A stretch of 60,685 nt of DNA. It comes from Flammeovirgaceae bacterium. GTDB lineage: Bacteria; Bacteroidota; Bacteroidia; Cytophagales; Cyclobacteriaceae. Location of the stretch: contig JAJTHV010000022.1 of the NCBI GenBank assembly GCA_021300095.1, forward strand, positions 1 through 60,685, read 5' to 3'. Numbering within the stretch: the stretch's first letter is position 1; every line of letters starts with the position of its first letter. Positions 2,203-32,056 of this stretch are shown here, one piece after another. The notes below the pieces were generated by a model. The model searched no databases, had not been told where the DNA came from, and saw only the letters and a program-made list of their open reading frames with translations. The position numbers and the translations under genes are program-made.

Positions 2203-3249
2203 ATGATCCCTACCAAAGCCTACGCAGCCTTCAGTGCCACCACACCTCTCGCACCCTTTCAATTTGAACGCAGAGATCTTCGTCCGGATGATGTGCAAGT
2301 AGAAATTCTGTACTGCGGTGTTTGTCATAGCGACTTACATCAAGCGCGCAACGAGTGGGGCGGTTCCATGTACCCTATGGTGCCCGGCCATGAAATTGTA
2401 GGCAAAGTAACACTTGTGGGTACTAACGTAAAAGAATTTGTAGTTGGCGAACTAGCAGGTGTAGGCGTGATGGTAGACTCTTGCCGGACGTGTAAAAACT
2501 GCATGAACGACTTAGAGCAATATTGCGAAGAAGGAATGACCGGCACCTACAACGCGTTTGAGCGCGATGGCAAAACCATTGCGCAAGGTGGATACTCCTC
2601 GCAAATTGTAGTCGATAAAAAATATGTGCTGCACATTTCAGAGAAACTTGATCTCAAAGCTGTAGCTCCGTTGTTGTGTGCAGGCATCACTACCTACTCG
2701 CCTTTGCGATATGCCAAAGTAGGCAAAGGGATGAAAGTGGGTATCATTGGGTTGGGCGGACTTGGCCACATGGGTTTAAAATTCGCGGCTAGCTTCGGTG
2801 CTGAAGTAACCCTCATCAGTTCATCTGCCTCCAAAGAAGCCGATGCCAAACGACTAGGCGCACATCATTTTTTACTTTCATCTGATGAAAAACAAATGCG
2901 TCAGCACCGTGGCCATTTTGATGTGTTGCTCAACACCGTTTCTGCCAATCACGACTACTCGCCTTACTTAAAATTATTAGGATTAGACGGCACGATGCTG
3001 ATCGTGGGTATTCCTGCACAAGCTCCAGTAGTACGACCATTCGATATTTTAACCAACCGCAGAAGTATCACCGGGTCTTCGATTGGCGGTATTAAAGAAA
3101 CGCAAGAAATGCTCGACTACTGTGCAGAGAAAAATATTGTTGCCGATGTGGAATTGATTCCGATGCAAGAAATCAATAACGCGTATGAGCGAATGGTGAA
3201 AAACGATGTTCGCTACCGATTTGTAATTGATATTAAAAGTTTAGGATAA
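2203..3249 (+). CDS. Zinc-dependent NAD(P) alcohol dehydrogenase, cinnamyl-alcohol-dehydrogenase/YahK type
   Basis: This 348-residue MDR-superfamily enzyme should reduce aldehydes (or oxidise alcohols) with NAD(P)H in the cytosol. Visible are the catalytic zinc motif GVCHSDLH (residues about 40-47) and GHE, the structural zinc cysteines in CRTCKNCMNDLEQYC (about 94-108), and the nucleotide-binding loop GLGGLGHMG (about 182-190). Length is normal for the family. It follows hmgA in the same direction after 69 bp, so it may be co-transcribed, though no link to homogentisate breakdown is known to me. The exact substrate cannot be told from the sequence. Confidence 0.9.
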   Translation: MIPTKAYAAFSATTPLAPFQFERRDLRPDDVQVEILYCGVCHSDLHQARNEWGGSMYPMVPGHEIVGKVTLVGTNVKEFVVGELAGVGVMVDSCRTCKNCMNDLEQYCEEGMTGTYNAFERDGKTIAQGGYSSQIVVDKKYVLHISEKLDLKAVAPLLCAGITTYSPLRYAKVGKGMKVGIIGLGGLGHMGLKFAASFGAEVTLISSSASKEADAKRLGAHHFLLSSDEKQMRQHRGHFDVLLNTVSANHDYSPYLKLLGLDGTMLIVGIPAQAPVVRPFDILTNRRSITGSSIGGIKETQEMLDYCAEKNIVADVELIPMQEINNAYERMVKNDVRYRFVIDIKSLG

Positions 3250-3281
3250 GTTGTTACTTTCGGTGGCCGATGTTTTGTTTT

Positions 3282-3776
3282 TCATTTTATTCGTTTCAAA
3301 ACAACGCGTTGCACCGAAGTAGTTGAATAATTCGTTACTTCAGGATGGGAAGTTGCTTCTTTCTTGCCGGAAGTAACTTCAAAAATCAATTCATCCCCCC
3401 GTAATTCATATTCAGATGTGAGCATAATGCCTTGCGTTTCAAAGATGCTGTACAATTTATTGCCGGTGAGATAATCCGTTAGCTCCAAGCCTCCGCCTTC
3501 GTCCGTTACATACAAATTTTTGCTCGCATCCTTTAGCCGCAGTTTATAGTCCTTCACCATAGGCATTTTGGCAGAGAGATACTCCATACGCCAGGTCCAC
3601 ACATGAGTAGCTTCAACTGCTACTGTCAACTTTACTTCTACACTATCACGCAATTTTCCCAAATGATAGATATGCATCATTCCTTTCCACGTACCGGCAC
3701 AGCGATCGCCAAATAATTCCTGTGCAGAACCATTCCATGAAATAAAAAGAAAAAAGATAAATACGAAGCTCCGCAT
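3282..3776 (-). CDS. Secreted protein of unknown function
   Basis: 164 residues. The N-terminus MRSFVFIFFLFISWNGSAQ is a typical type I signal peptide, so the mature protein is probably periplasmic or outer-membrane associated. The remainder is predicted beta-rich (alternating polar and hydrophobic stretches such as YLTGNKLYSIFETQG), reminiscent of small lipocalin-like or DUF-type barrels, but I recognise no family. It is on the opposite strand to the dehydrogenase, with ends 32 bp apart, and its start is 15 bp past the stop codon of the next transcript partner region. Confidence 0.7.
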   Translation of the reverse strand: MRSFVFIFFLFISWNGSAQELFGDRCAGTWKGMMHIYHLGKLRDSVEVKLTVAVEATHVWTWRMEYLSAKMPMVKDYKLRLKDASKNLYVTDEGGGLELTDYLTGNKLYSIFETQGIMLTSEYELRGDELIFEVTSGKKEATSHPEVTNYSTTSVQRVVLKRIK

Positions 3777-3791
3777 GCGTGATGGTTGTCC

Positions 3792-4649
3792 TTATACCTT
3801 GCCCTTCTTTACCAGGTATCCAAACAAAGCTGCTGTAAAAAACATAAGGATGCTATACAAGGCGGCTGGTACGCTCATGAGCGAGTTATTCAATACCGAA
3901 AGCGCAATAAAAATAGCAAGCGTACCATTGTGAATTCCGATTTCCATTCCAATGGCTACCGCCTGGCGCTTCTCTACTTTCCAGATTTGAGGCAAATAAT
4001 ATCCTAATCCCATACTGACTAAATTAAACACCAAGACAGGAAATCCGATAGAGGGAAAATGAGTAGTTAGAATAACACGCTCGCGATACACGGCAGCAAC
4101 AATGATCAGCAATAAAAAAATAGCCGAAAGGATTTTTACTGGTTTATCCATCTTCGCAGCAAAAGAAGAAGCTTTGCTTTTAATCAGCATGCCAATTGTA
4201 ACCGGCAACAGTACGATCATAAAAACCTCAATCACCTTAGCAAATTGCATGGGGACATATTGATCGGATGTCAGGAAGTGAGCGAGAGAAAGATTGACCA
4301 CCAACGGTAAAGTGAACAAGGTGAGGACGCTATTCACAGCCGTTAAGGTAATATTCAATGCGACATCTCCATTCGACAGGTGACTATATAAATTCGCTGT
4401 GGCTCCACCGGGTGAAGCGGCCAATAACATCAACCCCACTGCGAGCGCTGGTTCCAGTCCAAAAATTTTCGCTATAAAAAAACAAACAATTGGAAGTAAA
4501 ACCATCTGGCATATCAAGGCGATGGCAACTGCCTTTGGGTATTGTATTACGCGCTTAAAGTCTTCGAGGGAAAGTGATAAACCCAGACCCAGCATAATGA
4601 TGCCGAGGGCAATGGGTAATAGCGTAGTGGTTAAGATGCTGCCTTGCAT
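3792..4649 (-). CDS. Bile acid:sodium symporter family (BASS/SBF) membrane transporter
   Basis: 285 residues with about eight to nine hydrophobic segments. The start (LPIALGIIMLGLGLSLS) and the segment LLAASPGGATANLYSHLSNGD are hallmarks of the SBF family, whose members use sodium to import bile acids, pyruvate, pantothenate or other organic anions across the inner membrane. The GGATAN motif lies in one of the crossed helices that form the ion site. It is the downstream neighbour of the M24 peptidase with only 2 bp between stop and start, so the two are probably one transcript. The substrate cannot be assigned. Confidence 0.88.
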   Translation of the reverse strand: MQGSILTTTLLPIALGIIMLGLGLSLSLEDFKRVIQYPKAVAIALICQMVLLPIVCFFIAKIFGLEPALAVGLMLLAASPGGATANLYSHLSNGDVALNITLTAVNSVLTLFTLPLVVNLSLAHFLTSDQYVPMQFAKVIEVFMIVLLPVTIGMLIKSKASSFAAKMDKPVKILSAIFLLLIIVAAVYRERVILTTHFPSIGFPVLVFNLVSMGLGYYLPQIWKVEKRQAVAIGMEIGIHNGTLAIFIALSVLNNSLMSVPAALYSILMFFTAALFGYLVKKGKV

Positions 4650-6118: not shown

Positions 6119-6321
6119 ATTGATAGATTTTTCAGTATTCGAAAAATAGGGAATTGCTACCATAGTTCAAGCTGAAATTACATCATTGCCAACCGATCTG
6201 ATTGTTAATTCCTTCATAAAATGTATATAAACCATTCTGAATTAAAACGCACCGTCCGCCATTTCATCATTGCTTGACTGGATTTGTTTGTTGTAATTCG
6301 TTCCTTTAAATCCCACTACCT

Positions 6322-9300
6322 ATGAAACGTCTGGTGTGTTTCTTGATTTCTCTTGCTTCTTTAACTGTTATGGCGCAATCGCCAACACTTGTGCGGTATC
6401 CGGCTATAAGCCCTAATGGATCATTACTCAGCTTCTCTTTTCAGGGAGACATCTGGACGGTGCCTTCAACTGGCGGTAAGGCCACTCGACTCACAGTACA
6501 TGATGCATACGAAAGCACGCCCGTCTTCAGCCCCGATGGGAAAAGCATCGCCTTTACCGGTTCTCGCTACGGCAACAATGATATTTTCGTGATGCCAGCC
6601 GAAGGTGGAACCCCCAAGCGATTAACTTATCACTCCAATGGCGATCAGATTTCCAGTTGGAGTAACAACAACATGATCTTCTTTTCAACGTCACGCGAGT
6701 TTCAACAAATTGAGCGCCCGTTGGAAATCTATTCGATTTCCGCAGAAGGTGGAACTGAAGTACGTGCGATGGATGCGGTTGGCTTTGATCCATCACCCTC
6801 ACCCGATGGTCGTTTCATTGCCTTTACACGTGGTGATCTAAATCCCATCTTCCGCGAAGACTACCGTGGCCCTTCGAATCGGGACATCTGGTTGTTCGAT
6901 TCTAAAAACAAAACTTACACACGTATATCCACTTTCGATGCCAACGATATTCTGCCTCGCTGGGGCAATAATCAATCTCTCTACTTTCTTTCTACGCAAG
7001 GTGGGCGCAATAATCTCTACCGAATAAAAATAAGTGATGCAGGCAGGTCGATTGGCGCTGCCGAACAACTGACTGACTTCAACGATTACTCCATTCGTTA
7101 CTTTTCAATTTCAGCAGACGGAAAAACGATTGTGTTCGAGCGTGAAAAAAACATTTACACCTTCAACACCGAAAACAAATCCACACAAAAGGTAAACATC
7201 CAAATTGGTGCCGATGTGCGCTTCGATCCGGTCGTGAATAAATCGGTATCGGCAGATGCTAATGAATATGCTGTTTCACCCAACGGAAAATTGATGGCCC
7301 TCGGCATTCGCGGAGAGGTATACGTGAAAGAAATCAACAAAGAAAAAAACACCACCACCAATCTTTCCAATCACGCTTACCGCGATATGAACTTCGATTG
7401 GATCGGTGATTCAGTAGTTGTATTTACATCGGATCGTGAAGACGGAAACTTTGATCTCTATTTAGCGAAATCAACCGATAAGCAATCGATCGTAAAATCA
7501 TTGAAACATCGTGTAACTCGACTCACACAATCAGCCGAAGACGAATCCGGTGTTTCCATTTCTAATGACGGAAAGAAAATTGCGTATGTCCGTGGCCGAG
7601 GGACTTTAGTCGTCAGCGATATTTCTCCAGACGGAAAATTGAGTAACGAAAAAATTCTACTCACCGGTTGGGCAGCACCTTCTAACATTCGCTGGAGTCC
7701 GGATAGCAAGTGGCTGGCTTATTCACAGGAAGATTTATATTTCAACGAAGAAGTATTTATTCACGCTGCTGATAATAGCAGCAATCCCGTGAATGTGAGC
7801 ATGCATCCACGCTTTGATGGCGAACCGGTGTGGAGTGCCGATGGGTCGAAGCTCGGATTCATCTCCGCACGCAACAATCAATCCAATGATGTTTGGTTTG
7901 TATGGTTGAAAAAAGAAGATTTTGAAAAATCGCAGAAGGATTGGGACGAAACCACCTCTGAAGAGAAACCTGAAAAGAAAGATGATAAAGAGAAAAAAGA
8001 AGAGAAGAACAAGCCGGTGAAAATTGACTTCGATCGGATTCACGAGCGCGTAGTGCAGGTCACCAGCTTTCCCGGCGATGAAGCCAACCCGATCATTTCA
8101 AAAGATGGTGAAACTTTCTTTTATACAGGCACTACAAGCACGGCCAAGGGTCGTGACCTCTACAGCATTAAGTGGAATGGTAAAGACTTGAAAGAGTTCA
8201 CCAAAGGTGCCTCGAATCCTTCTCGCGTGTCGATGGATCGTGAAGGGAAATATTTGTACTTCCTCAAATCGGGTGGTGCTATTAATCGCATCGACATCAA
8301 AGGCGAAAAAACAGAGCCACTTCCCTACTCAGCAAAACAACGCATTGATTTCACTGCCGAACGTACACAAGTTTTTGAAGAAGCCTGGCGTACGATTCGG
8401 GATGGATTTTACGATCCGCAGTTTCACGGCAAAAACTGGAATGCCCTTCACGACAAGTACAAAGAACTTTGTGTGATCGCCAGCACGAATGAAGACTTCC
8501 GCGATATGTTCAATTACTTATTGGGCGAATTGAACTCCAGTCATATGGCGCTCTCAACCCCAGCACAGGCGGATACTCAGCGCGATGCTACCGGTATGTT
8601 GGGTGTTGAGTTAGTGCCACTGAAAGATGGAATGAAAGTAATGCGCGTGATTCCCAATTCTCCAGCCGACAAAGCAACCAGCAAACTGTTTGTTAACGAT
8701 GTGATCACTTCTGTGAATAATCAACCCTACAATGAAAAGGAAAACTTTTATGATTTGTTGAATACTAAAGTGGAAGAACGTGTGCTGTTAACGGTTCGCA
8801 ATATAGAAGGCAAAGTGCGCGAAGTGGTGATTCGCCCTACTAACTCAGTGCGCCAATTGTTGTATGAAGAGTGGGTGGAGAATCGGAAGAAGTTGGTCGA
8901 TCAATTTTCAAATGGACGAATTGGCTATATTCACATTCAGGCCATGAGCTTACCAAGCTTTGAAGTATTTGAGCGCGAGCTGCAAGCAGCAGGCTACGGA
9001 AAAGAAGGCTTGGTGGTAGACGTGCGCTACAATGGCGGTGGCTCCACCACGGATTATCTGATGACGGTGCTTAATTACAAGCAACATGCCTACACCATTC
9101 CGCGAGGCGCCAGCGATAATCTAGAGCGCGACAAACTAAAGTTCCGCGACTATTATCCTACGGGTGAGCGGTTGGTTTTTGCTGCGTGGATGAAACCATC
9201 CATTGCTTTGTGTAATGAAGGCAGCTACAGCAATGCAGAAATTTTTTCGCATGCCTACAAAACATTGGGTATCGGCAAACTAGTGGGGGTACCTACGAAT

Positions 9301-20739: not shown

Positions 20740-20900
20740 ATTTTAAATTTTTGTTTCTACGACTTTGACACGCGCCCCCACCCAAAAGGTTGGAAAGCAG
20801 TCTAAACCGCGTTCGAATTTATAAAATCGGCCTTCCTGTCTATAAAAACAGCCTTACCTTGGCGAACCGCTCCCGTTTCTTTGCCCAAAATCTAAAACAC

Positions 20901-22064
20901 ATGATCGCCACTGAAACCCCTTCCCTCACCGAACGCAGACACGACCTCGACTGGCTGCGCGTAATCGCCATCATTATTCTCCTTTTTTTCCACACCGGCA
21001 TGTGGTTCAACAACTGGGGCTGGCACGTAAAAAACAACGAGCTCACCACCTCCTTCCAATATTGGATGATCTGGTCGCACAACTTCCGCATGCAGTTGCT
21101 GCTCTTTATTTCCGGGGCGGGCACTTTCATTGCCCTTGGCTCGCGCACTTCAAGCCAGTTTCGCAAAGACCGCTACAAGCGCCTGCTAGTGCCGCTCATC
21201 TTTGGTATGCTCGTCATCGTGCCACCTCAAATCTTTTACGAGCGCATCAGTCAATACACCAGCTACTGGGATTTCTATAAAACCGTTTTTCAATTCAAAC
21301 CTTACCCTGAAGGCGGAAGCCTCAGTTGGCATCATCTCTGGTTCATTTTATACTTACTTGTTTACTCCATGCTTGCACTGCCATTTTTAAAATACCTGCG
21401 ATCACCCAACTCCGAAAACTTCCGACAAAAGTGCAACAAGGTACTCTCATCGCCTGCCGCCATGTTATTCATTCCATCTATTTTAATACTCATCAGCCAA
21501 ATCATTTTGCGCCCTTACTTCCCCGAAGAGACGCATGACCTACTGAAAGACTGGGCATATTTCGTCTATTACTTTTCGTTCTTCCTCATGGGCAGCATCT
21601 GCTACTCCATCCCTACACTGTGGCAAGCCATCGGCAACAATCGAAAATATTTTCTGGTCGCACTGGTTTTCGCGCTCATTCCATTCTATGCGTGCTATCT
21701 ACATTTCCGCGAACTCATCACGCTGCCTGCACATATCGATACCATCGAAACCATTTTTGATGTCAGCGCCATTTTTGTCAGTTGGTTCACCGTCATCACC
21801 ATCATCGGATTCGGTCAGCACTACCTCAACAAACCCAGTCGCTGGCTCGCGCCCATCAACGAAGGTCTCTATCCATTTTATATTTTACATCAGTCAGTCA
21901 TCATTGCCATCGGGTACTACGTGTGTCAATGGGACTGGAGCATCTCCGCCAAATATTGGATGATCTGCTTTCTCACAGCTGCCAGTTGCACCGCTTTTTA
22001 TGTTTGGATCATTCGCCCATTCAACATCATGCGCTTTTTATTTGGTTTGAAAACAAAGAAATAG
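20901..22064 (+). CDS. Acyltransferase 3 family membrane protein (OpgC/MdoC-like)
   Basis: 387 residues from the ATG at 20901. An upstream in-frame ATG at 20790 adds 37 residues with no homologous pattern and is not preferred. RHDLDWLRVIAIIILLFFHTG is the usual first helix with Arg and His, and about ten membrane segments follow. A His-rich loop SLSWHHLWF is also typical of the succinyltransferase OpgC group. Probable role: adding acyl groups to periplasmic or surface glycans. The substrate is unknown. Confidence 0.85.
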   Translation: MIATETPSLTERRHDLDWLRVIAIIILLFFHTGMWFNNWGWHVKNNELTTSFQYWMIWSHNFRMQLLLFISGAGTFIALGSRTSSQFRKDRYKRLLVPLIFGMLVIVPPQIFYERISQYTSYWDFYKTVFQFKPYPEGGSLSWHHLWFILYLLVYSMLALPFLKYLRSPNSENFRQKCNKVLSSPAAMLFIPSILILISQIILRPYFPEETHDLLKDWAYFVYYFSFFLMGSICYSIPTLWQAIGNNRKYFLVALVFALIPFYACYLHFRELITLPAHIDTIETIFDVSAIFVSWFTVITIIGFGQHYLNKPSRWLAPINEGLYPFYILHQSVIIAIGYYVCQWDWSISAKYWMICFLTAASCTAFYVWIIRPFNIMRFLFGLKTKK

Positions 22065-22080
22065 AAATTAAGGCTTTGGG

Positions 22081-22200
22081 GGCATGGCTTACTCAAAACG
22101 CATTCCATGCGTTTTGAGCGCCACCGGGCTGTCGGCAGTCGCCACCCATCGCACAGTCCACTTCGGGCTCCAATGCATGCCTCCATCCCTTGCCCACGCC
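22081..22200 (-). ncRNA. Candidate structured RNA
   Basis: On the minus strand GGCGTGG (22200-22194) pairs with CCATGCC (22087-22081), one G-U pair, closing a 120-nt domain. Inside is a perfect 11-bp hairpin (CTCAAAACGCA, 22118-22108, with TGCGTTTTGAG, 22102-22092). Blocks AAGGGATGGAGGC and GACAGCCCGGTGGCG resemble, from memory, a recurrent intergenic motif of flavobacteria and related groups. No coding gene on the minus strand lies next to it, and a frame that crosses it looks accidental. I cannot name the family. Confidence 0.45.
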
Positions 22201-22306
22201 AGCACGTAGCTTATCTGTACTTCCTCATTCATCGTGTAGCAAGGCAGAGATCGACCTATAGAAAAATTGACTGAAAAGACCCAAATTTGAATACCAACAA
22301 AACAAT

Positions 22307-22537
22307 ATGGGGACACTTGAATTGAAATCAGATCTACATAAAATCCTAGACAGCATTGAAAACGAACAGCTGCTGCGGACAGTTTATGATTTCCTAAAGC
22401 AAAGAGAGACTGGAAAGGAAGGGCAGATATGGAACACGCTGACCGAAGAACAAAAGAAGGAAGTTTATATATCATACGAAGAATCTCAAGACGACAATAA
22501 TCTAATTGCTTGGGAAACTGTTAAGATGAAGTATTAA
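22307..22537 (+). CDS. Small antitoxin-like protein
   Basis: 76 residues, acidic and helical, with LKSDLHKILDSIENEQLLRTVYDFL and a C-terminal tail like those of RelB/ParD-type antitoxins in Bacteroidota. Its stop codon overlaps the start of the decayed toxin gene (TAATG), the usual coupling in toxin-antitoxin pairs. With a dead toxin, it may be under relaxed selection or may serve as an orphan regulator. Confidence 0.62.
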   Translation: MGTLELKSDLHKILDSIENEQLLRTVYDFLKQRETGKEGQIWNTLTEEQKKEVYISYEESQDDNNLIAWETVKMKY

Positions 22538-22781: not shown

Positions 22782-24023
22782 ATGAAGCCCTTTCTACTTG
22801 CAATTGTAGCATTGATCTGCTTGCAATGCTCCACTAACAATCAACCACCCATTACGTGGCAAACCATTGAGAAGTCTCTACAGACACAACTCATCACTGC
22901 TGCCGATGGCGACACCATTCATCTGCCGGAAGGCCATTTCATGTTTACCAAAAGCATTACGCTTGATGGCAAAAAGAACATCCTCATCAAAGGCAAAGGG
23001 TTAGACAAAACCATCCTCAGCTGGAAAAACCAAACTGAAGGAGCCGAAGGCCTTCATATCAGCAACGGAAAAAATATTGTACTCGAAGATTTCTCCATCG
23101 AAGATGCCAAAGGCGACAACTTGAAAGTAAACGACACACACGGAATTACCTTTAGAAGAATACGCTCCGCCTGGGCCGAAGGCCCAAAAACAGAAAACGG
23201 TGCATACGCGCTCTACCCGGTTTTATGTACACGCGTGCTCATCGAAGAGTGCATCGCCATGGGCTCTTCGGATGCTGGAATCTACGTGGGCCAATCTGAT
23301 TCAGTGATCATCCGCAACAACAAAGCCTACTGGAATGTAGCGGGCATTGAAGCCGAAAATTCCAAGTGGGTCGAAATCTACGGCAACGAAGCCTACGAAA
23401 ACACAGGCGGCCTACTCATCTTCGATTTACCCGGACTCACGCGCTACGGCCACACTGCCAAAGCATACAAAAACAACATCCACGACAACAACCACGAAAA
23501 TTTTGCGCAGAAAGGAAATGTGGTGGCCAGCATACCGCCCGGAACCGGTGTAATGATTCTCGCCACCCACAATGTCGATTTTTATGACAACACGCTCACC
23601 GACAATCGCACGGTAGGCGTGGGCATCGTCAGCTACGAAATGGTTGCTGCCCTCAACGAAGGAGAGCAACAACAAGAAGGTGCCATTGGTGGGGTGCAAT
23701 CCGTCAACAACCGCTTCCGCGAAGATTCACTCTACAATCCGTTTCCGTATCATATCAACATTCATCACAATCAATTTGAAAACAGCCACTGGTTTCCGAC
23801 CATGCAAAGCGACATTGGCAAACTCTTGCTCACCAAATCATTTTTCGACACACCCGATGTAGTGTATGATGGCATCGAAAATCCGAAACAAAAAGAGCGC
23901 AACATCTGCGTTTCTGAAAATGGTGAAATCACCTTCATGAACTTAGATGCCGCCAACGATTTCAAAGCGCTATCCAAAGATGGTGCGGCATTCGCCTGCG
24001 ACAAGAAAGCTGCAATGCCATGA
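22782..24023 (+). CDS. Secreted parallel beta-helix lipoprotein
   Basis: 413 residues with a lipobox (LICLQC, Cys about 15). Repeated strands with Asn and Asp at turns (for example IKGKGLDKTILSW, ISNGKNIVLEDF, NNKAYWNVAGIEAENS) show a right-handed parallel beta-helix, as in polysaccharide lyases. The family (TIGR03805-like) is regularly paired with the diheme cytochrome encoded next, whose start overlaps its stop by 4 bp. No catalytic site is clear, and the substrate is not known. Confidence 0.85.
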   Translation: MKPFLLAIVALICLQCSTNNQPPITWQTIEKSLQTQLITAADGDTIHLPEGHFMFTKSITLDGKKNILIKGKGLDKTILSWKNQTEGAEGLHISNGKNIVLEDFSIEDAKGDNLKVNDTHGITFRRIRSAWAEGPKTENGAYALYPVLCTRVLIEECIAMGSSDAGIYVGQSDSVIIRNNKAYWNVAGIEAENSKWVEIYGNEAYENTGGLLIFDLPGLTRYGHTAKAYKNNIHDNNHENFAQKGNVVASIPPGTGVMILATHNVDFYDNTLTDNRTVGVGIVSYEMVAALNEGEQQQEGAIGGVQSVNNRFREDSLYNPFPYHINIHHNQFENSHWFPTMQSDIGKLLLTKSFFDTPDVVYDGIENPKQKERNICVSENGEITFMNLDAANDFKALSKDGAAFACDKKAAMP

Positions 24024-30886: not shown

Positions 30887-32056
30887 ATGACTCTGCACGA
30901 AGTTGTAAGCACACTCGATAAAAAAGAATTTTTACATCTGCCCATTCGGCTTTATAAAAATTCACCCCGCTGGATTCGTCCGTTGGACAAAGACGTTGAA
31001 AATGTTTTTGATCCGGAGAAAAATAAAACTTTTCGCCACGGAGAAGTAATTCGTTGGATTTTGAAAGATGCGCAGGGAACAACCATCGGCAGAGTAGCCG
31101 CATTTATCGATCAGAAGACGGTGAATAAAGGAAACGACCAGCCCACGGGAGGAATGGGTTTCTTCGAATGCATTGAAAATAAAGAAGCCGCTTTTATTTT
31201 GTTTGATCAATGCAAAAAGTGGTTGCAACAAAAAGGGATGGAGGCCATGGACGGCCCTATCAACTTTGGTAGCCGCGATCGTTGGTGGGGATTGCTGGTA
31301 GATGGGTTTGACCGCGAACCAAATTATCAATGCAACTACAATCCTACTTACTACAAAACTTTTTTTGAAGCGTACGGCTTCAAAACTTATTTCAATCAGT
31401 TTACTTTTGCCCGCAAAATTCAAGATCCACTCTCGCCCAAACTGGCACGCAAAGCCGAACTGATTGCGCAAGAAGATGGATATGAGTTTCGTCATTTGCG
31501 CAAAGACGAAATCAAAAATTTGGGTGAATACTTGCGCACCGTTTATAATAAGGCTTGGGCCAATCGGGCAGAAAACCCGGAGATCACCTCACAACAAGCC
31601 GCACTGATCGTGAAGCAGATGAAGCCCATCTTGGATGAGAAACTTTTGTATTTTGGTTTTTACAAAGGCGAACCTATTTCATTTTTTCTTTCGCTACCGG
31701 AAATCAATCAGATTTTCAAACATGTAAATGGCAAAGTCAACTGGTATGGCAAACTGGTTTTCCTTTGGTTTCAATGGCGCAAACTCAATACGAAAGCCTT
31801 CGGTATTTTATTTGGTGTAGTACCAGAGCACCAAGGCAAAGGAGCTGATGGCGCCATGATTAGTGCCGCCCGAAAGGTGTTACAAGAAGTCTATAAACGA
31901 TATGTCGATTATGAAATGAACTGGATTGGCGATTTCAATCCGAAAATGATTAATGTGGTTGAACAAGTGGGCGGCTTCGTTTCAAAAACGCATATCACCT
32001 ATCGAAAACTATTTGACGAGACCAAGCCTTTCAAAAGGCATCCAATTTTAAATTAA
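30887..32056 (+). CDS. GNAT-like acetyltransferase-fold protein
   Basis: 389 residues of a family common in Bacteroidota with a GNAT fold in the second half. The first part (LPIRLYKNSPRWIRPLDKDVENVFDP) contains a conserved basic segment; the acetyl-CoA loop may be VPEHQGKGADGAMI (about 318-331). No substrate is known. It is followed by the VTT membrane protein after 1 bp, so both are in one transcript. Confidence 0.75.
   Translation: MTLHEVVSTLDKKEFLHLPIRLYKNSPRWIRPLDKDVENVFDPEKNKTFRHGEVIRWILKDAQGTTIGRVAAFIDQKTVNKGNDQPTGGMGFFECIENKEAAFILFDQCKKWLQQKGMEAMDGPINFGSRDRWWGLLVDGFDREPNYQCNYNPTYYKTFFEAYGFKTYFNQFTFARKIQDPLSPKLARKAELIAQEDGYEFRHLRKDEIKNLGEYLRTVYNKAWANRAENPEITSQQAALIVKQMKPILDEKLLYFGFYKGEPISFFLSLPEINQIFKHVNGKVNWYGKLVFLWFQWRKLNTKAFGILFGVVPEHQGKGADGAMISAARKVLQEVYKRYVDYEMNWIGDFNPKMINVVEQVGGFVSKTHITYRKLFDETKPFKRHPILN

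Follow-up and report, generated by a model that had tools for sequence, protein, structure and literature searches.

A divergent Flavo-1-like dispersed element with a nearly constant framework and variable hairpins in a Flammeovirgaceae bacterium

We analyzed a 60,685-nucleotide stretch of DNA from a Flammeovirgaceae bacterium (contig JAJTHV010000022.1 of assembly GCA_021300095.1; hereafter the window), in which an earlier note had proposed a folded RNA on the minus strand. A structured minus-strand element containing both of the sequence blocks named in that note is indeed present at 22077-22201, and it is almost certainly a divergent copy of a dispersed extragenic element resembling Flavo-1 (Rfam RF01705). 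Its boundaries are those of a covariance model, R1, which was built from 40 other copies, aligns to the element over its full length (model positions 1-110 of 110) and reports it as the top match in the window (32.5 bits, expectation value (E) 4.8e-6; the next match scored 11.3 bits). On two loci carrying elements of the window type, R1 scored 26.1 bits (L003) and 15 bits (L002). An Rfam scan of the window returned no family at threshold, and RF01705 gave no match to the window copy up to E 10, so that its gathering score of 42 bits was not reached. Four weak Rfam matches in 21950-22350, with E up to 10, were rejected as unrelated. Nevertheless, the window copy shares common descent with recognized Flavo-1 members, based on the R1 match and on an orthologous site where one genome has a window-type core and another a canonical one.

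The source genome holds at least 43 dispersed R1 matches at E ≤ 0.01, a count that comes from 131 scored candidates out of 748 and in which the window copy is not identifiable among the matches listed. R1 was run over 29 genomes, the number of scored candidates being capped at 131 per genome, and 15 of them had matches at E ≤ 0.01: at least 43 in the source genome, at least 39 each in G011 and G012, at least 14 in G003, and 0 to 7 in the others, with none among the candidates scored in five genomes from the same genus. RF01705 matched 14 of these 29 genomes (the source genome and relatives) at E ≤ 0.01, including 26 matches in the source genome, four of them above the 42-bit cut-off. Three of six other source-genome loci compared with Rfam likewise gave a Flavo-1 match (best 34.7 bits, E 2.9e-4), and a BLAST-type search of that genome found two diverged copies together with short matches, some of which were the ends of other copies. 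The earlier note had mentioned similar blocks in many Bacteroidota, and R1 bore this out with matches in 38 of the 247 Bacteroidota genomes sampled, under stricter filters and with at most 15 candidates scored per genome. An exact pattern search gave 89 stretches on genome contigs, from which 80 loci were taken, and 5 on viral contigs; R1 returned 84 matches at E ≤ 0.001 on these 85 loci.

Flavo-1-like elements were seen in three of the five viral-collection loci (L235 3722-3817, L236 766-857, and L238), the last being a 9.2-kb contig with three copies at 437-540, 6250-6373, and 9039-9144. A full-length model match at L172 4543-4625 comes from outside Bacteroidota, the contig being titled Candidatus Marispirochaeta associata, and may reflect transfer or contamination. 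The pattern matches in Candidatus Thiodiazotropha (L162) and Alteromonas indica (L203) are taken as chance because neither has a model match. Another pattern, AAGGGATNGNNGC, was set aside since most of its 12 sites were judged by eye not to be elements. The exact sequence AAGGGATGGAGGC occurs at two sites in the window, and the one at 31233 lies outside any model match.

Structural evidence came from 48 copies, 44 read first and four added, which were the source of two alignments. The first, A1, includes the window type and has 43 of the 48 copies (C143, G011C112, G003C109, G024C26b, and G001C17 were left out), and the second, A2, contains the 40 copies without the window type from which R1 was built. 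Four of the 48 rows (C278, C50b, C320, and the window copy) were dropped in one alignment step. RNAalifold predicted 10 pairs on the 43 copies of A1, 8 of which change on both sides. The earlier note had looked to homologs and compensatory changes for support, and both were found. Across these pairs 97.0% of cells were paired, and covariation was 0.433 compared with 0.139 after shuffling and no more than 0.133 after sliding the 3' side; the counts are favored because the structure was derived from the same rows. Columns 18-119, for example, were UA in 22 copies, AU in 15, and GC in 5, and columns 34-108 were GC in 24 and UA in 15. A third alignment, A3, of the 84 matches gave 95.1% pairing and covariation of 0.213 versus 0.074, but it is not independent, since it was fitted to the model, shares 6 of its 84 rows with A2, and draws most of its loci from a pattern search that already dictated much of block 1. 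Of its 11 pairs, 30-322 is broken in 41 of 82 rows, probably because the register is shifted beside a bulge.

The alignments show that one strand of the element, the minus strand in the window, can fold into a predicted three-way arrangement. In order, this consists of an outer stem (P1), a rod containing a conserved internal-loop helix and ending in a variable cap (P2), and a second variable hairpin (P3), which is absent or very short in some copies. The internal-loop helix is roughly two-fold symmetric, with GGG-A.G-UN, a GC core, and A-A-(G/U). Five-base-pair P1 stems were perfect in 109 of 130 distinct elements (142 minus 3 left out and 9 duplicates), compared with a mean of 41 and a maximum of 54 over 200 shuffles, and their sequences were diverse (GCGGC in 49, GCGTG in 14, GGGCA in 13, CGGCC in 11, GCAGC in 10, and others). 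Folding energy alone is weak and not strand-specific: over 130 nt the minus strand gave a z score of -1.85, with 9 of 200 shuffles folding equally well, the plus strand gave -2.81, and the 125-nt element gave -2.15 and -2.35. The element is therefore placed beyond chance by homology with covariation, not by energy.

In the window copy, all parts of which are on the minus strand, P1 is formed by GGGCA (22191-22195) and UGCCC (22080-22084), as assigned from P1 covariation and sequence. The 7-bp closing stem GGCGTGG/CCATGCC put forward earlier can pair in the window, but it is interrupted by one inserted base in the orthologous copy in genome G066 and is not the conserved stem; it is the overlapping 5-bp GGGCA/UGCCC stem that covaries across the family. 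Block 1 (GGGAUG, 22184-22189) and block 2 (CAGCCC, 22126-22131) were placed by the alignment fold and pair counts, and the block 1 pairs are the same in the RF01705 structure line; GGG and UG of block 1 pair with CA and CCC of block 2 across an A-G mismatch. The central mini-helix joins GGCA (22178-22181) to UGCC (22134-22137), supported by pair counts for columns 22-23 with 114-115, and its extension to 4 bp from the 2-bp GC of canonical copies is read from the sequence. Window-type copies carry a GGCA/UGCC central helix and a G in block 1, partnered by C, where most copies have U or A. The apical hairpin P2 (22141-22168), with a GCC/GGC base also read from sequence, is the exchangeable part, the core around it being common to L002, L003, and the orthologs. 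P3 (22085-22123) consists of a UGGC/GCCA base, kept in the orthologs of G012 and G066, and the inverted repeat CTCAAAACGCAT, a perfect hairpin of 12 bp, rather than the 11 bp first reported, with a 3-nt loop (22092-22103/22107-22118). This hairpin had been taken as a feature to follow across relatives; it is specific to the window site and not common to the family.

Comparisons between genomes indicate how the parts of the element have changed at individual sites. The window element stands at the same place in G012, where 124 of 125 bases are equal by eye, and in G066, where the family P1 is also kept. When 41 elements of the source genome (G000) were compared with 55 stretches of G012, 12 of the 15 resulting pairs were used as orthologous sites. 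The framework was identical at 552 of 577 positions (95.7%), compared with 1881 of 2222 (84.7%) for the flanks and 602 of 756 for the hairpins. At 4 of the 12 sites one hairpin was less than 50% identical and had been replaced whole (C108 P2, 11/41; C319 P2, 8/38; C364 P3, 7/23; C456 P3, 7/26). Detection alone does not force a framework identity of 96%, because identity between copies from different sites has a mean of 77% (range 55-100%) in two blocks of the framework, as measured on the 24 source-genome copies that parsed cleanly. At one site (C463), a core pair is U-A in G000 and C-G in G012, a compensatory change in place. At C164a, P1 and P3 are the same in G066 but P2 is different, and other DNA, about 1.6 kb long, is adjacent. 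At the C91 site of G012, G066 has a window-type core together with a similar P3 and a similar 3' side of P1; because the left flank differs too, the tract that was exchanged may extend past the element.

The P1 types found with window-type cores are GGGCA, GGGCG, and GCGGC, joined in G066 by CGGCC (by eye). Three of 146 rows were dropped from this survey, among them L372, whose G066 copy had no R1 report at E ≤ 0.1 and was read by eye. In L372, at a rearranged orthologous site, the immediate neighbor of the window-type core is a gene of the DUF1016_N/YhcG_C nuclease family (3043-4053; Pfam). At a set of sites, then, the framework and P1 are nearly constant and P2 or P3 is replaceable as a whole, which suggests that the frame of the element is under selection and that its hairpins are exchanged. 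We tentatively extend this to a "socket and cassette" reading, somewhat less probable than its alternatives taken together, in which the copies would be selected structural platforms retained at their sites that exchange apical hairpins as units, and in some cases the entire core, with other dispersed copies. The outer stem and internal-loop framework would then be fixed for each site, and the window type would be one cassette.

The genomic context of the copies bears on whether the element could act as an RNA. None of the 48 copies was recognized inside a gene. Ten overlap a mechanically called open reading frame (ORF); six of these ORFs were re-read, of which three were frames extended upstream of the likely start (by eye), two were low-complexity or mixed frames, and one showed no spanning frame. 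The window copy's 128-amino-acid minus-strand ORF was checked separately and has no Pfam match, in agreement with the earlier statement that no gene covers the element. Relative to their neighbors, 14 copies were arranged as >E>, 11 as <E>, 7 as >E<, and 10 as <E< (E being the element), and 6 had one neighbor missing. In a scan limited to the E. coli-type consensus, neither an intrinsic terminator (on either strand) nor a promoter-like match adjoins the window copy, the nearest minus-strand upstream promoter-like match being about 260 bp away.

A free-standing, trans-acting small RNA (sRNA) with its own promoter, acting by pairing or protein binding, would account for the strong covariation, for the retention of the element at the window locus in three genomes, and for the Rfam entry type of Flavo-1, "Gene; sRNA". 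It is nonetheless unlikely given the dozens of dispersed copies and the results of the terminator and promoter scans. In the portion of the Flavobacterium psychrophilum transcriptome study consulted, moreover, Flavo-1 matches lie sense or antisense to transcribed regions, with many outside them, and a clear function was not found (PMC9723704). The free-standing RNA suggested by the earlier note is thus not supported, because the copies are intergenic in mixed orientations and no terminator adjoins the window copy. A cis-acting element of untranslated regions (an attenuator, a riboswitch, or an mRNA-stabilizing 3' end) is less likely still. Among copies with a downstream neighbor, 28 of 45 are co-directional with it, a weak excess, and repetitive extragenic palindromic (REP) stems can protect mRNA ends. 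Between tandem genes, however, no clear orientation preference was seen (14 versus 10), and the window copy runs antisense to the gene before it, a plus-strand ORF with an Acyl_transf_3 domain (20790-22064; Pfam E 8.3e-27) whose stop codon lies 12 bp before the element begins.

Movement by a transposase was considered next to these RNA-based explanations. A REP-associated tyrosine transposase (RAYT), a single-strand HUH enzyme of the TnpA_REP subclass 2.6 kind, could move the element by recognizing its fold in single-stranded DNA. The "subclass 2.6-like" label rests on a motif in the part of PMC6006769 consulted and on a pattern search. Of the 80 genome-contig loci fetched by element, 3 have a RAYT-like ORF near the element, at 58, 484, and 861 bp; the distance is 175 bp in L300 and about 1.5 kb for a copy in C164 of the source genome (the close loci being L171, L223, L151, L300, and C164). 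In the main test, however, only 2 of 42 RAYT loci from element-rich genomes, taken with about 1.5 kb on each side, hold an element, with about one expected at the density of the source genome, and among 52 Y1_Tnp-related loci, a few of them overlapping, there is one. Genomes G007, G151, and G205 carry elements with no match to PF01797 or the RAYT profile. Replication strand shows no bias either, with 10 elements leading and 11 lagging by eye in two one-contig genomes; origin and terminus were placed from noisy GC skew over 20 stretches per genome, and one of the 22 elements among the matches listed was dropped because it lies near a skew boundary. RAYT as the mover is therefore not supported by these counts and remains an unlikely explanation. 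The source genome's own RAYT-like gene (L038 1354-1962, G000:C75), which has a YIHNNP motif, has no element beside it, and no viral relatives of it were found. Short ACGCGTT/AACGC palindromes seen near this gene by eye are a different repeat from the Flavo-1-like element.

We consider it very improbable that the copies are ends or remnants of a classical DNA transposon, similar to miniature inverted-repeat transposable elements. They are dispersed and patchy, and they also occur in viral-collection contigs. In one of these (L238), a 612-amino-acid ORF that carries an integrase core domain (rve) separates two of the three copies, although this may be the phage's own enzyme. The sole outer inverted repeat seen, however, is the 5-bp P1, whose sequence varies among copies, and no transposase was recognized by eye between close pairs in L206, L219, and L224, where ORF starts only were read.

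The best overall explanation, and one we regard as reasonably probable, is a Flavo-1-like dispersed element with a way of working like that of REP sequences and bacterial interspersed mosaic elements (BIMEs). By analogy, a REP-like platform is slightly favored over a dedicated sRNA. The element would then spread between intergenic sites as REP/BIME-type repeats do, it may serve as a structural platform recognized through its internal-loop helix, either as single-stranded DNA or in a transcript, and its hairpins could be exchanged between copies by recombination or template switching. Several observations weigh against this explanation. No enzyme is linked to the element, and a functional RNA would also be compatible with its conservation at sites across species. 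For three canonical single copies, folding was no better than that of shuffled sequences (z scores of -0.51, 0.23, and 0.23), and wobble pairs give weak evidence for which strand folds, with 6 G.U versus 4 A.C in A1 and 14 G.U in A3, 11 of them at a single pair. Insertion is inferred from copy-number differences because a search for clean empty sites found none; where both flanks were present, the site was occupied or its surroundings were rearranged. The estimate of selection is biased upward, since most G012 stretches were fetched for holding an element and decayed or missing copies are under-counted. Finally, a copy lies 42 to 43 bp upstream of the transfer-messenger RNA (tmRNA) gene, on the same strand, in two genomes (G008 L070, minus strand, tmRNA 2516-2909 and copy 2953-3052, 43 bp apart; G005 L078, plus strand, tmRNA 3143-3536 and copy 2979-3100, 42 bp apart).

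Other features were seen around the window copy and its relatives. A 111-amino-acid plus-strand ORF from the ORF list, for which no Pfam search was made, overlaps the 3' part of the element. The next conserved gene on the far side is right-handed beta-helix/NosD-like (22782-24023, plus strand; Pfam), and a similar gene also follows in G066. The segment 22313-22760 (plus strand) contains a 74-amino-acid ORF without a Pfam match and then a broken reading frame whose counterpart in G012 is intact (L127 741-1025); neither was seen at the same place in G066 (L128). This segment resembles what we presume to be a decayed toxin-antitoxin pair, a candidate assignment. Some elements (in L051, L043, and L040) are immediately followed by short CTCCTTCGCTAAAGCTACGGAG-type palindromes, in places arranged in tandem, and others have CCCGATAGCTATCGGG palindromes inside P2 or P3, both by eye.

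Among the closest known systems are REP/BIME sequences and REP doublets forming hairpins (REPINs) with their TnpA_REP (RAYT) enzymes. Like these, the element is dispersed, extragenic, and hairpin-rich, with a copy number that varies among close relatives. It differs in being about 75 to 180 nt long with a conserved internal-loop helix, and its linkage to RAYT genes is about that of chance in the main test. A GTAG/CGTC-type foot tetranucleotide is a REP/BIME-type feature in the parts consulted of PMC6006769 and PMC3733652. The "atypical secondary structures" beside TnpA_REP subclass 2.6 of Bacteroidetes, as described in part of PMC6006769, are alike in phylum, structure, and multiple copies when compared by description only, but the YIHNNP gene of the source genome is not flanked by the element. 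The likeness to Flavo-1 extends to the core pairs (GGG-UN, GC, and A-A-(G/U)C), the variable cap, and similar block sequences. The window type differs in having G-C in block 1 instead of U-A/A-U, a 4-bp instead of a 2-bp central helix, and a longer internal loop, and in not keeping the A-A pairs next to the cap; P1 and P3 are unpaired in the Rfam model. Flavo-1 was listed for Bacteroidetes in 2010 (Table 1 of PMC2864571, consulted in part) and is still typed as an sRNA in Rfam without a known role in the sources consulted. The passages on Flavo-1/RF01705 consulted mention neither hairpin exchange nor an outer stem. To this family our analysis adds the outer stem, a third arm, a subfamily missed by the Rfam model, and a framework that is nearly constant at shared sites while whole hairpins differ at some of them. 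Because the frame appears to be selected and the hairpins exchanged, the function of Flavo-1 can now be tested through the partners of the internal-loop helix and the agent of hairpin exchange.
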